64,000 nt of DNA, from the NCBI RefSeq assembly GCF_024331145.1, contig NZ_JANDJO010000002.1, positions 434,001 to 498,000 of the forward strand, written 5' to 3'. Shown piece after piece: positions 100 through 20,031 of this stretch. This DNA is from Shimia sp. CNT1-13L.2. Lineage in GTDB: Bacteria > Pseudomonadota > Alphaproteobacteria > Rhodobacterales > Rhodobacteraceae. The first letter of the stretch is position 1, and each line of letters starts with the position of its first letter. The position numbers and the translations under genes were made by a program. The notes beneath the pieces are model-generated. The model ran no database searches. It was not told the origin of the DNA and saw only the letters and a list, made by a program, of their open reading frames with translations.

Positions 100-1206
100 C
101 TACGCCTCGTAGGTGGCGACCGGCGCACCAAGGCTTTCAAAGTCCGGCGTAACGCCCAGACCAGGCGTATCGGGCGCATAAAGCTTGCCGTTCTTCACCG
201 TCGGGCCGCCGATTCCCGTGCTGCGGGTCACGTAGTGGTGCAGGTCGGTGGTGTTTTGCAGCATCTCTTCCGGAGTCGAGGTTGCAAAATGCGCCACCGC
301 CGAGGATGTGATCTGGCCGCCCCACGTGTCTTCGCTGACCACCGGAATGCCGTGATCAATCAGGAAATCGCGCACCCGGCGGGCCTTGGACAATCCCCCA
401 AGGTTCGAGATTTTCAGACAGCAGATCTCGGCCCCGCGATCCTCTACAATGCGGCGCGCCATCTGGATACCGGTCACGCATTCATCCAGCTTCATCGGCT
501 GTTCGGCGACGCGGCGCACCTGCTGGCATTCCTCGTAGGTGTGGCAGGGCTGTTCGAGGATAAAGTCGAGATCGCGGGTGGCACGGGCCACGCGGATCGC
601 ATTGTCGACGCGCCATCCCTGGTTGGCATCCGCCATCGCCTTTTCCCCCGGCTTGAGAAGCGGCACGGCCTGACGAATGCGGTCAATATCCGTGACCCAG
701 TCACCGCCCACCTTGATCTGGAACTGGCGATAGCCGCTTTCCCGATGCGCCTCCAGCTCCTTGATGGTCTCGGGAACCGATTTCTGCGGTGCCACGCGGT
801 ACATCGGAGCGCCGTTGGTCAGCTTGCCCCCCATCAGCATCCAGACCGGCTGGTCCGTGGCCTTGCCCAGAATGTCCCAGAAGGCGGCATCAAAGGGGGC
901 CTTGGCATAGCCGTGGCCCTGCGTGATGCTGTCCATCAGCCGTTCCATCCGCCAAAGCTGGCGGGGGTCTTCCCCAAGAAGGCGCGGTGCGGCCAGTCGG
1001 GCAAAGGCCTCGACCCCTTCGGAATGCGCCACCATGTAGTTCTCGCCACAGGGGGTGAATTCGCCACAGCCCTGAAGGCCCGCGTCGGTATCCACCACCA
1101 CGACCGAGGCCATGGCCGTCTCGATGGCATTTCCCGCCCCCCAGACATAGGCCCCGTCCACATAGGCCAGCGGGGTCTTGTAGATGCGAATGCGGGTGAT
1201 CTTCAT
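100..1206 (-). CDS. Enolase-superfamily enzyme, mandelate racemase/muconate lactonizing type (4-hydroxyproline-betaine epimerase-like)
   Basis: This 368-residue protein has the enolase-superfamily layout: an N-terminal capping domain (about 1-125) and a TIM barrel. Metal ligands are readable as D193 (in MADANQGW), E218 (in ILEQPC) and D241 (in KLDECV). Two barrel lysines, K165 (in QFQIKVGG) and K265 (in CLKISNLGG), are placed for proton transfer on both faces of a substrate carbon, as known for proline-betaine and hydroxyproline-betaine epimerases (HpbD type). The usual first lysine of the KxK motif is glutamine (Q163). It is the last gene of a four-gene minus-strand operon and starts 3 bases after the stop of a second enolase-superfamily gene. 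Epimerase on a proline- or betaine-like acid is an inference from the lysine pair; cis-3-hydroxyproline dehydratase is an alternative. The family assignment is firm, the substrate is not. Confidence 0.85.
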   Translation of the reverse strand: MKITRIRIYKTPLAYVDGAYVWGAGNAIETAMASVVVVDTDAGLQGCGEFTPCGENYMVAHSEGVEAFARLAAPRLLGEDPRQLWRMERLMDSITQGHGYAKAPFDAAFWDILGKATDQPVWMLMGGKLTNGAPMYRVAPQKSVPETIKELEAHRESGYRQFQIKVGGDWVTDIDRIRQAVPLLKPGEKAMADANQGWRVDNAIRVARATRDLDFILEQPCHTYEECQQVRRVAEQPMKLDECVTGIQMARRIVEDRGAEICCLKISNLGGLSKARRVRDFLIDHGIPVVSEDTWGGQITSSAVAHFATSTPEEMLQNTTDLHHYVTRSTGIGGPTVKNGKLYAPDTPGLGVTPDFESLGAPVATYEA

Positions 1207-1209
1207 GGT

Positions 1210-2334
1210 CTATGCCTCCCAAACGGCGATCGGGTCGCCCATCACGTCCATATCCGGTGTCACGCCAAGGCCGGGGGCGTCGGGCGCTTCGGCCCCGCCG
1301 TCCTGCAGGGGCGCGTCAAAGGCGGCGGTTGTCACCGACACCATCGACCGCGTGTCGAGCGCCTGCCGCAGCATGTGGCGCGGCGTGGATTGCGCCATGT
1401 GCAGGATCGCGGCAAAGGCGATGTCCGATCCGGTGGTGTCCTGCACCGAGGCCACGAGGCCTGCCGCGCGGGCAATCTCGCGCTGGCGGCGCGTGCGGGT
1501 CAGTCCGCCCTGTTTCGAGATCTTGAGACCCACCCCGTCACAGGCATCACGATCAATCGCGTGGATGATGTCTTCCTCGCTCTGGACCAGTTCATCGAGC
1601 AGGATCGGCACGCGGCATCGCTGGCGCAGCGAGAGCGTCTCGCGCCATGTGGGGCAGGGCGCTTCCAGCACGAAATCCAGCCCCTCGGGCAACAGGGACA
1701 ACAGCCGCAGCGCGTGTTCCGGTGTCATGCCGTTGTTGGCGTCTGCCAGAAACCATTCGCCGGGGCGACGGTCTGCCAGACAGGCCCGGATGCGCTCGGC
1801 GTCGATCATCGGGCCGCCCTCGGCCTCCTCGGCACCGATCTTCACCGAATGCCCCATGAACCCCATCTCGCGATGGCGTGCCACGTTGGCCCGCATGGCG
1901 TCGGGCGTGTCGCTGCCAATCGACGAGATCATCGCGACCTTGCCGGGAATGCGCCCGCCCAGAAGGTCACAGACCGGCATGCCCGCCGCCTTGCCGAACA
2001 CGTCCCAACAGGCCACGTCGATCGGCGTCTTGGCGTGATGGTGCCCCATCAGCGCCATGTCCATCGCGTCATTGATCCGGTCCACCTGACGGGGGTCCAT
2101 CCCCAGAACGGCAGGGGCCAATTCCTCAAGGCCCGCACGCACGCCACGGGCATGGGCGGCGATATAGGTGCTGCCGAACGGCGTGCTTTCGCCCCAGCCA
2201 TCAAGGCCGCTGTCGGTGACGATCCGCACGAAGGTCGCGTCGAAACTCTCGTAGGTGCGGCCCCCCGACAGGCGATAGACGCCACCGGCATAGGGCAGGT
2301 CGACCTGATAGGCCTCAATCCGTTTGATCTTCAT
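1210..2334 (-). CDS. Second enolase-superfamily enzyme, mandelate racemase/muconate lactonizing type (cis-3-hydroxyproline dehydratase-like)
   Basis: The start at 2334 gives 374 residues beginning MKIKRIEAYQ. Its ATG overlaps the TGA of the upstream cupin gene (ATGA at 2331-2334), so a longer reading inside that gene is not needed. Metal ligands are D198 (in FLADANNG), E224 (in VLEAPCP) and D247 (in ILLDELV); the acid/base lysines are K165 (in HSVKIGA) and K271 (in GLKISKQGG). The first KxK lysine is serine (S163). It is a clear paralogue of the neighbouring gene at 100-1206, not a duplicate: the substrate loops differ. Members of this branch act on proline-like or betaine-like carboxylates, so a dehydratase or epimerase step in the same pathway as its neighbour is likely. 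The exact reaction cannot be read from sequence. Confidence 0.83.
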   Translation of the reverse strand: MKIKRIEAYQVDLPYAGGVYRLSGGRTYESFDATFVRIVTDSGLDGWGESTPFGSTYIAAHARGVRAGLEELAPAVLGMDPRQVDRINDAMDMALMGHHHAKTPIDVACWDVFGKAAGMPVCDLLGGRIPGKVAMISSIGSDTPDAMRANVARHREMGFMGHSVKIGAEEAEGGPMIDAERIRACLADRRPGEWFLADANNGMTPEHALRLLSLLPEGLDFVLEAPCPTWRETLSLRQRCRVPILLDELVQSEEDIIHAIDRDACDGVGLKISKQGGLTRTRRQREIARAAGLVASVQDTTGSDIAFAAILHMAQSTPRHMLRQALDTRSMVSVTTAAFDAPLQDGGAEAPDAPGLGVTPDMDVMGDPIAVWEA

Positions 2335-2915
2335 GCCGCATCCATCGTTGGCAGCCCCGCCAGACCGGCCCCGCGCCACAGAACAAGGGTCAGGATCGGC
2401 TGATCCGTGGTGACCATGGCGTGGGGTTGGTTGGTTGCGTGGAACAGTGTTTCGCCCGCCGACAAGTCTACCGGTTCGCGCCCCTCGGCATAAAAGGTCG
2501 CGCTGCCGGCAAGGCAGACATAAAGCTCTTCGGCCTCGTGGCGGTGCCAGTCATAATTCAGGCCCGGCCCCCAGTAGGCGACATAGGCGCGAAGGCTGTC
2601 GCTCTGGAAATGCCCCGTCGGGCCGACCAGTTCGAAATAGCCATAGTTCTCTCGGAAATGCGCGCCGACCTCTTCCTCGGTATAGGTGCGGATCCAGTAG
2701 CCATCCCGCGCCGCCGCCCTGATCGCGTCGATCAGGGGCTGGGTGCTGTCGGTTCCGGCGCGGTCAAATGCTGCGACAATGTCGGTCGCCGGGATGTGGC
2801 GCATCATCTTGCCGGTGCTGGGCGTGTCATCCGGCCAGTCGACAAAGGCCTGCATGTCGGGATGCGCCGCAAAAAGGGATTTCGCGGCGGCCAAAACACG
2901 ATCCAGCCCGGTCAT
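2331..2915 (-). CDS. dddQ: Cupin DMSP lyase-like protein (DddQ family)
   Basis: This 194-residue single-cupin protein has its metal/active-site motif at residues 121-132: Y121, H124, H126, E130 and Y132, with a final H165 on the second cupin strand (NQPHAM). The spacing Y-x2-H-x-H-x3-E-x-Y matches, almost residue for residue, the zinc/iron site described for DddQ-type dimethylsulfoniopropionate lyases, which cleave DMSP to acrylate and dimethyl sulfide. The length also fits DddQ. Both ends overlap neighbours by ATGA (2331-2334 and 2912-2915), so it is translationally coupled to the oxidoreductase upstream and the enolase-fold enzyme downstream. No acrylate-detoxification (acuI/prpE) or dddW/dddP gene is nearby, and reported DddQ activities are often weak. 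The native substrate in this operon may therefore not be DMSP. Confidence 0.75.
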   Translation of the reverse strand: MTGLDRVLAAAKSLFAAHPDMQAFVDWPDDTPSTGKMMRHIPATDIVAAFDRAGTDSTQPLIDAIRAAARDGYWIRTYTEEEVGAHFRENYGYFELVGPTGHFQSDSLRAYVAYWGPGLNYDWHRHEAEELYVCLAGSATFYAEGREPVDLSAGETLFHATNQPHAMVTTDQPILTLVLWRGAGLAGLPTMDAA

Positions 2916-4033
2916 GGCAGGACCACGATGTTGCCGGTGTGGGCTTTTTCGATGAACGCGGCCTGCGCCTCGCGCAGTTCTGCAAGCGGGTAGGTCGCGG
3001 CCAGTGCCGGTTTGATCTCGCCCGCCTCGATGTATTTCACGAGGTTCTCGGTCACGACAGGGTCGATCACGGTCGAGCCGGTAAAGGTCAGGTCACGCAG
3101 ATAGAAGGTGCGCAGATCGAAGTCGACCATCGGGCCAGCAATCGCCCCGGAACAGGTATACCGCCCGCCGCGTTCAAGGATGTCGATCAGCTTGGGCCAG
3201 TAATCGCCGCCAACGACATCGGCGACCACGGTGATCTTCTCGTCACCAAGCGCGGCGCGCAGGTCTTCGGGGCCACGCGGCAGGATACGGTCGGGGCCAA
3301 GCTTTGCCACATCGTCATGTTTGGCTTCCGAGGCCAGCGCGATCACCCGCGCGCCCCGGCGTTTGGCCAGTTGCACCAATGCGCCGCCAACACCGCCCGA
3401 AGCGCCGGGCACAAGCACAGTGTCCCTGGCGCAGACATTGGCGCGGGTCAGCATGCCTTCGGCGGTCGAATAGGAGCAGGAAAAGGTGGCCAGTTCCGCG
3501 TCCGAAAGATCGGATTTCACGGCAATGACATTGGTCGCGGGAATGGTGGTGTATTCCGCATAGCCGCCATCGCATTCCGATCCGTAATACCCGGTCTTGT
3601 CCATGTTGGTCGGGTCTTCGGGATCGCGCAGCCAGTTGTCGGTGATGACGCGTTCGCCGATGCGGGCCGGGTCAACGCCGTCGCCCACGGCGACGATAAC
3701 GCCGCAGACATCCGCGCCCTGGATGCGTGGAAAGGTGAGGGGGCGTCCGCCCCAGGTGGGGTCTTCCTCGTTGACCTCGTCAAAGGCGCCGCCGGTGGTG
3801 GCTTCGTCCACGGCCTTGGAATACCAGCCCGAGCGCGTGTTCACATCGGTGTTGTTGAGGCCGCAGGCCCCCACCTTGACCAGCACCTCGCCGGGTGCGG
3901 CTGTCGGGGTCGGCCAGTCTTCTTTCCAGTGGTATTGATCCAGCCCGCCGTGACCCATGAGCACCATTGCTTTCATGGTTGCGGGAATGTCTGCCGCGCC
4001 GTTCCTGGTATCGGCAACGAGAGAATCTGACAT
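2912..4033 (-). CDS. MDR-family alcohol dehydrogenase/quinone oxidoreductase-like protein
   Basis: The start at 4033 (MSDSLVADTR) gives 373 residues. An AGGA Shine-Dalgarno lies 8 bases upstream, and a longer reading would run into the divergent promoter. It has a GroES-like N-terminal domain followed by a Rossmann domain with the nucleotide loop VPGASGGVGGALVQLA. The catalytic-zinc pattern of classical alcohol dehydrogenases is not complete (ACGLNNTD where GHE-type ligands would be expected), so a zinc-independent quinone/enoyl reductase-like activity is more likely. It is the first gene of the minus-strand operon and overlaps the cupin gene by ATGA. By position it could reduce an unsaturated or keto product made by the cupin or the enolase-fold enzymes. 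It is not clearly AcuI (acryloyl-CoA reductase): a roughly 35-residue leader and a long insert near residues 80-120 set it apart. Confidence 0.75.
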   Translation of the reverse strand: MSDSLVADTRNGAADIPATMKAMVLMGHGGLDQYHWKEDWPTPTAAPGEVLVKVGACGLNNTDVNTRSGWYSKAVDEATTGGAFDEVNEEDPTWGGRPLTFPRIQGADVCGVIVAVGDGVDPARIGERVITDNWLRDPEDPTNMDKTGYYGSECDGGYAEYTTIPATNVIAVKSDLSDAELATFSCSYSTAEGMLTRANVCARDTVLVPGASGGVGGALVQLAKRRGARVIALASEAKHDDVAKLGPDRILPRGPEDLRAALGDEKITVVADVVGGDYWPKLIDILERGGRYTCSGAIAGPMVDFDLRTFYLRDLTFTGSTVIDPVVTENLVKYIEAGEIKPALAATYPLAELREAQAAFIEKAHTGNIVVLP

Positions 4034-4102
4034 GGCCTTGATCCTGTCCGTGTTTGCGTGTCTGATGGAGACGTTATTCAATCATATGTACCAAGGTCAA
4101 CA

Positions 4103-4990
4103 ATGAATGATACAAATGTATCCGACGCAGTTCTGAACCGCCTCAGTTCGGAGTGGGACGCCCTCACACCCGAAGCGCAGAAGGCGGCGCGCTACGTGCT
4201 CGAGAACCCGCGTGACGTTGGTGTATCGACGGTGCGCGAGATCGCAGAGGCGGCGAATGTGAAGCCCAACACCGTGGTGCGTATGGCGCGGCAGGTGGGG
4301 TTTGAAGGCTACGAGGATTTCCGCGAACCCTTCCGCGAGGCGATCCGCAACGGGCAGGCCTCTTTCCCGGACCGCGCGCGATGGTTGCAGGACACCCGCA
4401 AGAACGGCGCGCTGGGCGGGCTTTATGCCGATATGGTCTCGGCCGCGCTTCAGAATGTCGAGGATACCTTTGCCGGGATTGACGAGGCCGCGCTGCACGC
4501 CGCCGCCAAAACCCTGTGGGAGTCGCGCAGCGTCTATACGCTTGGGGTGGGGGTCAACAATGCCAACGCCCGCAACTTCACCTATCTGGCCCGCACCGGC
4601 ATGGTGCAGTTCCACGCCATCCCGCGCCCGGGTTCCACGCCGGTGGATGATATCGCCTGGGCCGACGAACGGGACGTGCTGATTGCTATCACTTGCCATC
4701 CCTATCGCCGCGAAGTGGTCGAGGCGATGCAGGTTGCACGCGAGCAGGGGATGAAGATTGTTGGCATCTCCGACTCTCCGGCCTCGCCCATCGTGCGCAA
4801 TGCCGATCACGGGTTTGTCGTGGCCGCAGACACGCCGCAGTTCTTCCCGTCCTCGGTCTCGACCATCGCCCTGCTGGAAACGCTCTTGAGTTTCGTGATC
4901 GCCACCGCCGACGACAAGATCGTCGATCGGGTCGAGAGGTTCCACAAGCGACGGCACGAGCTTGGCATCTATCAGGACGATATCTCCTAA
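4103..4990 (+). CDS. MurR/RpiR-family transcriptional regulator
   Basis: This 295-residue protein starts at ATG 4103, six bases after AAGG; an upstream in-frame ATG at 4058 lacks a comparable site. The N-terminal helix-turn-helix of the RpiR type covers about residues 1-80 (STVREIAEAANVKPNTVVR). A SIS phosphosugar-binding-fold domain follows at about 125-255 (YTLGVGVNNANARN; ISDSPASPIVRNAD). Members usually respond to a sugar phosphate or small acid and regulate the adjacent catabolic operon. It is divergent from the four-gene operon at 100-4033, with only 69 bases between starts, so control of that operon and of itself is the natural reading. A strong intrinsic terminator follows at 4996-5027. 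Confidence 0.88.
   Translation: MNDTNVSDAVLNRLSSEWDALTPEAQKAARYVLENPRDVGVSTVREIAEAANVKPNTVVRMARQVGFEGYEDFREPFREAIRNGQASFPDRARWLQDTRKNGALGGLYADMVSAALQNVEDTFAGIDEAALHAAAKTLWESRSVYTLGVGVNNANARNFTYLARTGMVQFHAIPRPGSTPVDDIAWADERDVLIAITCHPYRREVVEAMQVAREQGMKIVGISDSPASPIVRNADHGFVVAADTPQFFPSSVSTIALLETLLSFVIATADDKIVDRVERFHKRRHELGIYQDDIS
4109..4122. promoter_or_regulatory. Perfect 6-bp palindrome at the rpiR start, candidate operator
   Basis: GATACA-AA-TGTATC is an exact inverted repeat with a 2-base spacer, lying over codons 3-7 of the regulator. A related AT-rich half (ATCATATGTACC, 4081-4092) lies between the two divergent starts. RpiR regulators bind inverted repeats of about this size. Assignment as the autoregulatory site is inference. 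Confidence 0.35.
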
Positions 4991-18633: not shown

Positions 18634-20031
18634 ATGAACGCAGCAACCAAACTTCCCGGTGACGTCGGTCCCATCCACTTTGTTGGCATCGGCGGGATCG
18701 GTATGTCGGGCATCGCCGAGGTGCTGTTGAACCACGGCTATACCGTGCAAGGGTCTGATCTGAAGGCATCGAAGATCACCCAGCGTCTGGAAGAGCAGGG
18801 GGCCAAGGTCTTTGTCGGACAGGTTGCCGAGAACCTGCAAGACGCCGAAGTTGTTGTCATTTCCTCTGCGATCAAACCGGGCAATCCCGAGCTGGACGAA
18901 GCCCGTCGCCGCGGGCTTCCGGTGGTGCGTCGCGCCGAGATGCTGGCCGAGTTGATGCGCCTGAAGTCGAACATTGCCGTGGCTGGCACCCACGGCAAAA
19001 CCACCACCACCACCATGGTCTCTGCGGTGCTGGACCACGGCAAGTTTGATCCAACCGTGGTCAACGGCGGCATCATCCACGCCTATGGATCGAATGCACG
19101 CGTCGGGGATGGCGAATGGATGGTTGTCGAGGCCGACGAGAGTGACGGTACCTTCAACCGCCTGCCAGCGACGATTGCCATCGTGACCAATATCGACCCC
19201 GAGCACATGGAACACTGGGGCACCGTCGAGGCGCTGCACAAGGGGTTTTACGACTTCGTGTCGAACATTCCCTTCTATGGTCTTGCGGTCTGCTGCACTG
19301 ATGATCCGGATGTTCAGACTCTGGTTGGAAAGATCACAGATCGCCGTGTCGTGACTTTCGGGTTCAACGCGCAGGCCGATGTGCGGGCGGTGAACCTGAC
19401 CTATAAGGCCGGTGTCGCGCATTTCGACATCCAGCTTCAGAACGAAGGCACCGTGATCGAAGGTTGCACCCTGCCGATGCCGGGGGATCACAACGTTTCC
19501 AACGCTTTGTCGGCCGTGGCCATTGCCCGTCACCTTGGCATGAAACGCGACGAGATCCGCGAGGCGCTGGCCAAGTTCGGTGGCGTGAACCGCCGGTTCA
19601 CCAAGGTTGGCGAGTGGGAGGGTATCCCGATCATCGACGACTATGGCCACCACCCGGTTGAAATCGCCGCTGTTCTCAAGGCCGCGCGACAGGCCAGTGA
19701 GGGCCGTGTCATCGCCGTGCACCAGCCGCACCGCTATACGCGGCTGTCTTCGCTGTTCGAGGATTTCTGCTCGTGTTTCAACGAGGCGGATTTTGTCGGC
19801 ATCGCCGAAGTCTTTGCGGCCGGTGAGGCGCCGATTCCGGGGGCGACCCGCGATGATCTGGTGGCGGGGCTCGTGGCGCATGGGCATCGCCATGCCATTG
19901 CGATCAACAACGAAGACGACCTTGAGGCGCTGGTGCGGGACAAGGCACAACCCGGCGACATCGTGGTGTGCCTTGGGGCCGGTACCATCAGCGCATGGGC
20001 CAACGGGCTGTCCAAACGTCTGAACGGTTAG
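18634..20031 (+). CDS. murC: UDP-N-acetylmuramate:L-alanine ligase MurC
   Basis: This 465-residue protein has the N-terminal motif [16 protein letters not shown]. The ATP loop is [14 protein letters not shown] (about 115-128), with EADESDGTF and [10 protein letters not shown] further on, all diagnostic of MurC. It adds the first amino acid of the stem peptide. The Shine-Dalgarno AGGAAG lies at the end of murG. After it come an unrelated permease and two small membrane proteins before murB. Confidence 0.97.

Follow-up and report, generated by a model that had tools for sequence, protein, structure and literature searches.

The closest described counterparts of the genes reported here belong to three systems: the DddQ lyases of dimethylsulfoniopropionate (DMSP; PDB 4LA2/5JSO, 4B29 and 5CU1), the Rieske systems for glycine betaine and carnitine (GbcA and CntA, with DMGDH-type FAD/GcvT proteins), and the enolase-superfamily (MR/MLE) enzymes of hydroxyproline betaine or cis-3-hydroxyproline (HpbD and the family NF043002). 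The dddQ region of Roseovarius nubinhibens was reportedly described in 2011, and a 2018 study is said to have argued that some DddQ-like cupins are enzymes without a known function. Here, we analyzed a 64-kb window (the whole stretch of DNA under study, 64,000 nucleotides) of the Shimia sp. CNT1-13L.2 genome, in which a DddQ-type cupin gene lies in a minus-strand operon on contig C7 together with genes for an MDR zinc-type oxidoreductase and two MR/MLE enzymes, MLEa and MLEb, and is faced by a divergent gene for an RpiR-family regulator. We describe a conserved cluster that has no assigned function and contains a well-known "DMSP lyase" family; in this genome it is present in a split and reduced form. 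We estimate a probability of roughly 60% that the five genes are half of a conserved Rhodobacteraceae cluster for the catabolism of N-methylated, betaine-type carboxylates, split over two loci in this genome and probably governed by two RpiR regulators through one operator. A literature search, which included PDB codes, was judged by title among the matches listed and had most subscription papers outside its reach, returned no account of such a cluster.

The cluster was delineated by searching the window cupin against 147 relatives and 394 family genomes. Sixty cupin-anchored loci were retrieved and their neighbors scored with 21 seed proteins; further matches at E ≤ 1e-22 (G336:C139, G459:C40, G220, G158, G217, G028, G329:C7 and G263) were left out as weaker. 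For a set of named genomes, 175 loci came from an alignment scan and the best 80 of them were retained, whereas a single-protein scan had no matches. The 60- and 80-locus sets are not independent, because some genomes are common to both (for example, L156 and L059). A third set comprised 20 Rieske-anchored loci taken from 34 Rieske-positive, cupin-negative genomes. Across many Rhodobacteraceae genera, the full cluster consists of Rieske–RpiR and, divergent from these two genes, FAD/GcvT–MDR–DddQ (one to three copies)–(MLEb)–MLEa–(small cupin)–MLE5–MLE6–aminotransferase. This order is strikingly constant across loci, and the window order MDR–cupin–MLEb–MLEa is a sub-order of larger clusters such as L188, L195 and L209. 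Its recurrence in other genomes shows that the gene set noted in a preliminary description of this DNA is no chance assembly; absence of the set from related genomes, which that description had named as grounds against its own proposal, is thus not what we see. Its picture of four genes forming a self-contained unit is not supported, as the four belong to a larger cluster that is split in this genome.

Scoring of the 60 cupin loci found MDR in 29 (including L077, where the match is only partial and sits at the outer end of the locus), FAD/GcvT in 25, aminotransferase in 24, MLE5 and MLE6 in 23 each, Rieske in 22, RpiR in 21, MLEa in 15 and MLEb in 4. A class III aminotransferase was present in 24 of the 25 cupin loci that carry Rieske or FAD/GcvT. 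The counts for the 80 named-genome loci were MDR 40, FAD/GcvT 32, Rieske 31, MLEa 25 and MLEb 11, and MDR lies directly upstream of the cupin at 27/60 and 38/80 loci of the two sets. Of 18 retrieved loci whose best cupin shares 45% identity or more with the window cupin, 14 carry one or more further genes of the set within 9 kb; none was found within that distance in L064, L077, L082 and L083. At the genome level, cupin and Rieske occur together in 28 of the 394 genomes, the cupin alone in 29, Rieske alone in 34 and neither in 303 (odds ratio 8.6, Fisher p = 5e-11, kinship not corrected). The 20 Rieske-anchored, cupin-less loci contained FAD/GcvT (20), RpiR (20), MLE6 (18), aminotransferase (17), MDR (11), MLE5 (8) and MLEa (2). 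Because the core genes are common at these loci and the others rarer, MDR, MLE5, the cupin and MLEa look like additions to a core that operates without the cupin. MDR and cupin form a unit of their own, as some metagenome contigs labelled Rhizobiaceae carry just that pair: L206, L207, L208, L211, L217 and L223, from the Rhizobiaceae group, have no other detected cluster gene, and L215 adds a small cupin.

Domain content was read on the L059, L060, L079 and L100 copies. The cluster proteins include a DAO+FAO_M+GCV_T fusion, a class III aminotransferase, an aldehyde dehydrogenase and a glutathione-dependent formaldehyde-activating protein (encoded at 10/60, 4/20 and 12/80 loci of the cupin, Rieske and named-genome sets, respectively), as well as carboxymuconolactone-decarboxylase-like, sulfotransferase-like and weak arylmalonate-decarboxylase-like proteins. 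The Rieske enzyme of L059 is nearest to carnitine monooxygenase 6Y8J (202 bits, versus 122 bits to 4QUP, which we take to be a stachydrine demethylase), and as the orthologue of the second-locus Shimia Rieske enzyme described below it reached 154.2 bits against the GbcA glycine betaine monooxygenase family (NF058607), short of the 670-bit cut-off. The cluster thus shares a Rieske oxygenase and an FAD-DAO+GCV_T protein with the glycine-betaine and carnitine systems and differs from them by its extra MLEs, aminotransferase, MDR and cupin.

Roseovarius nubinhibens ISM holds the entire cluster at its dddQ locus (L188): MDR, two cupins, MLEb, MLEa, MLE5, MLE6, aminotransferase, RpiR, Rieske and FAD/GcvT. 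Four PDB entries map to it, namely 4B29 (deposited as a DMSP lyase, 100% identity), 2QDD (100%), 2RDX (99.7%) and 2PCE (99.7%), the last three being MLE structures without a functional name. The cluster places three nameless MLE crystal structures in one pathway and points to partner enzymes. Whereas the R. nubinhibens locus is contiguous and has two cupins, the Shimia cluster is split and has one.

In Shimia sp. CNT1-13L.2, Rieske and FAD/GcvT genes are not beside the window cupin and were found instead on contig C14. This 25.9-kb contig carries Rieske, a second RpiR, FAD/GcvT, a 2QDD-type MLE (77% identity to 2QDD), MLE6, aminotransferase and aldehyde dehydrogenase genes, among others; no MDR, cupin, MLEa or MLEb was found on it, and the two loci complement each other in gene content. 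Identities to the L059 copies are 84% for Rieske, 73% for RpiR, 90% for FAD/GcvT, 86% for MLE6 and 51% for MLE5. In L059 and L080, the full cluster adjoins the same gene clusters (17, 23, 24 and 26) that flank the window operon. Given that full clusters occupy the same chromosomal site in these two genomes, the window operon appears to be a reduced in-place copy. C14 also encodes two hydroxyproline enzymes that score above their NCBIfam cut-offs, a trans-3-hydroxy-L-proline dehydratase (L124:4969-5994; 642.8 bits versus 550) and a 4-hydroxyproline epimerase (L124:7401-8405; 543.8 bits versus 450). Their genes lie near the Rieske genes, and neighboring genes encode a D-amino-acid-dehydrogenase-like protein, a member of the DapA family and the ATPase of an ABC transporter.

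The two Shimia loci are also linked by their regulators, which are 72.5% identical, and by a 41-bp motif that divergent RpiR promoters have in common. The motif overlaps the RpiR start codon, and a matrix for it was built from 73 promoter regions representing 58 distinct intergenic sequences. The copy at 4083-4123 is the sole site scoring above 5 in the 64-kb window, and five mononucleotide shuffles gave none. Furthermore, the pattern TGTACCANNGTCAANNNNNAATGANACAAATG (window 4087-4118), allowed up to three mismatches, has just two matches in the 4.1-Mb genome, both of them exact, at the window and C14 RpiR promoters; the reversed pattern, used as a control, had no match genome-wide. Two related RpiR regulators thus probably run both loci via one putative operator. 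Many RpiR promoters also contain a 16-bp palindrome, which was dropped as a candidate since by eye it is not retained in the two Shimia sites.

The window MLEs have, by eye, the usual catalytic positions of their branch. MLEa matches 2RDX at 684.6 bits and MLEb is 68% identical to 2PCE; both have MR_MLE N- and C-terminal domains. In the enolase superfamily, a D-E-D triad binds the metal and two lysines are catalytic. Both proteins retain the metal ligands and the two lysines, the catalytic positions reading, by eye, QIK / ADAN / LEQPC / LDEC / LKIS in MLEa and SVK / ADAN / LEAPC / LDEL / LKIS in MLEb. Their best NCBIfam match is cis-3-hydroxy-L-proline dehydratase (NF043002), and matches of this sort support their earlier placement in the hydroxyproline/betaine branch, although the scores of MLEa (391.2 bits) and MLEb (360.3 bits) are well below the 500-bit cut-off. 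Compared with the hydroxyproline-betaine and cis-3-hydroxyproline enzymes (presumably 4E8G, 4H2H and 4MGG, the first two of which we take to be HpbD), they share the MR/MLE branch and the lysine and metal-ligand positions but lie closer to 2RDX and 2PCE, two structures of unassigned function. The window MDR (ADH_N+ADH_zinc_N) scored 39.4 bits against the AcuI acrylyl-CoA reductase family (NF051456, cut-off 440 bits).

The cupin belongs to the DMSP-lyase superfamily, as initially proposed, with 79.3 bits against DMSP_lyase PF16867 (cut-off 27). Its nearest solved structures are 5JSO (E 1e-64), 4B29 (E 1.8e-49) and 5CU1 (E 2.3e-32), and it is 56% identical to the CupA-type cupin of L061 over alignment A1. 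Tyr120, His123, His125, Glu129, Tyr131 and His163 have been listed as essential DddQ residues (PMC4437653). All six are retained in the window cupin and in 66 of 67 aligned relatives (matches shorter than 140 residues were dropped), and all occupy invariant columns of alignment A1. Being DddQ-like with the essential residues retained, the window cupin should be capable of alpha-proton abstraction and beta-elimination. It resembles the DddQ DMSP lyases in fold family and active site and differs from them in genetic context, which is a predicted N-demethylation cluster rather than acrylate or DMSP genes; the neighborhood thus bears out the earlier view that the cupin sits in a catabolic setting unlike the usual DMSP one. 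The exception among the 67 relatives is one of two tandem cupins (L102:7418-8008, minus strand), in which Arg replaces a metal-binding His (YHREYH), so that its function is possibly altered or lost. CupA-type cupins with 52-54% identity to the query also occur in L157, L158 and L160, contigs labelled Candidatus Pelagibacter, with no cluster genes near.

Taken together, the enzyme families suggest that the cluster acts on an acyclic methylammonium carboxylate rather than on proline betaine: the Rieske and FAD/GcvT proteins would remove methyl groups from nitrogen, a primary amine is required by the aminotransferase, and the MLEs require a carboxylate with an alpha proton. In this scheme, the Rieske oxygenase and the FAD/GcvT dehydrogenase would form the core that strips N-methyl groups, MLE6 would epimerize or dehydrate the carboxylate, and the class III aminotransferase and aldehyde dehydrogenase would pass the freed primary amine into central metabolism. 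MDR plus cupin and the further MLEs would be add-on modules that broaden the range of substrates or stereoisomers. MLEa and MLEb would take the proton alpha to the carboxylate, as epimerases or beta-dehydratases, and the cupin would provide an optional branch in which the alpha proton is abstracted and a beta leaving group expelled, as DddQ does on DMSP; MDR would then reduce the resulting unsaturated acid or its carbonyl product. The earlier suggestion of another onium compound as substrate is plausible. Homarine was considered as a substrate and dropped, as nothing in the parts of the literature seen ties it to these genes.

Several observations weigh against this assignment. The link between cupin and cluster is only partial, given that 26 of the 60 cupin loci have no MDR, MLE, Rieske, FAD/GcvT or aminotransferase gene nearby and that 34 of the 62 genomes with a Rieske orthologue have no cupin at E ≤ 1e-22. 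Cupins without cluster neighbors are numerous, occurring for example in Leisingera and on contigs labelled Pelagibacter, which argues against a tight link. No transporter and no Rieske reductase were recognized in the cluster gene set, leaving gaps in the chain. As for the operator, the search pattern was drawn once both Shimia sites had been seen, the C14 site is weak against the 73-region matrix (12.2, versus 48.8 to 75 for the others), and the conservation of the motif is possibly in part coding, because its right half overlaps the RpiR coding start in most regions. On C14, however, the motif precedes the RpiR start at 18810 and does not extend into the coding region, a position that favors its reading as an operator. 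Finally, according to a published review, DMSP induces dddQ expression, and dddQ mutation lowers dimethyl sulfide (DMS) production by 97% in R. pomeroyi and by 20% in R. nubinhibens (PMC5395565).

These mutant and induction data favor a true DMSP lyase that makes DMS and acrylate in vivo and merely shares an operon with neighbors that are unrelated or serve other osmolytes. The complete catalytic residue set, the close match to solved DddQ proteins and the stand-alone cupins fit such an enzyme, as does the presence elsewhere in the genome, away from the operon, of dmdA (582 bits, over the cut-off) and an AcuI-like gene (436.1 bits, just below 440) side by side (G000:C16:23659-25823). The latter finding narrows the earlier statement that the usual DMSP partners are missing, which holds for the operon with respect to these two genes; dddP, prpE and BCCT genes were not searched for. 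We nevertheless regard this explanation as rather unlikely, because an MDR that is not AcuI so often lies directly upstream of the cupin and because a common motif ties the window operon to the Rieske and FAD/GcvT genes. Further points against it are a reported KM of 22 mM for R. lacuscaerulensis DddQ (PMC5395565) and the finding that dddP and dddQ are induced only 1-4 fold, versus 40-fold for dddW (PMC4437653). In the favored reading, DMSP would be at most one substrate of the cupin. The beta-ammonium propionate skeleton corresponds exactly to DMSP with nitrogen in place of sulfur, and the native role of DddQ cupins in this cluster could conceivably, though we think it doubtful, be a nitrogen version of DMSP lysis: beta-elimination of (tri)methylammonium from a beta-amino-acid betaine, with the MLEs handling alpha-carbon stereochemistry or a beta-hydroxyl and DMSP cleavage as a side reaction. 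Substrates might then include beta-alanine betaine or hydroxymethyl-trimethyl-beta-alanine, which forms the head group of DGTA, a betaine lipid of algae. dddQ serves as a marker of DMS production in marine surveys, and if many copies serve another onium compound, such counts overstate DMS potential; the true DddQ substrate becomes testable in culturable strains such as R. nubinhibens ISM and Shimia.

The pathway of the preliminary description can be read as catabolism of proline, hydroxyproline or hydroxyproline betaine, in which the MLEs would epimerize or dehydrate a cyclic betaine and the cupin would open or eliminate the ring. The nearest structures of the MLEs lie in the cis-3-hydroxyproline dehydratase/HpbD branch (the HpbD identity being our assumption), and C14 has its two hydroxyproline genes, yet none of the 160 other loci scored (60+20+80; some genomes recur) had genes of this kind, at 40% identity or more, close to the cluster. 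Moreover, both MLEs fall short of the NF043002 cut-off, the Rieske enzyme is closer to carnitine than to the presumed stachydrine oxygenase, and the aminotransferase, a usual member, suits a primary amine and would have nothing to act on in a secondary amine such as proline, all of which makes a proline-type substrate quite improbable. Least probable of all is that the window operon is a decaying leftover of a degraded cluster with little present function. Shimia thalassica does retain only cupin and MLEb at the corresponding site, and just 8 of 25 genus members examined have the cupin at E ≤ 1e-22, but the five open frames, the catalytic residues, the overlapping start and stop codons and the promoter motif are all intact here.

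Table 1. Features of the window operon and its divergent regulator (positions in the 64-kb window).
Feature	Position	Strand	Description
MLEa	100..1206	-	Enolase-superfamily (MR/MLE) enzyme, orthologue of PDB 2RDX
MLEb	1210..2334	-	Second enolase-superfamily enzyme, 2PCE type
Cupin	2331..2915	-	DddQ-type (CupA type); DddQ residues Y-H-H-E-Y-H retained
MDR zinc-type oxidoreductase	2912..4033	-	Regular cupin partner; not AcuI
Putative operator, conserved 41 bp	4083..4123	+	Overlaps RpiR start codon
RpiR-family regulator	4103..4990	+	HTH_6 + SIS; divergent; likely start ATG 4103

The operon is transcribed in the order MDR, cupin, MLEb, MLEa, and its open reading frames confirm the initially reported ATGA overlaps at 2331-2334 and 2912-2915 and the 3-base gap at 1207-1209. 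For the regulator, the ATG at 4103 (MNDTNVSDAV) is a more likely start than the GTG at 4058, because the resulting 295 residues match the 295-residue orthologue L059_13. Among the accessory genes of the cluster, a sulfatase gene (PF00884) adjoins the sulfotransferase-like gene in L100 (4566-5969, plus strand), a hint that some forms of the pathway may involve a sulfate ester.

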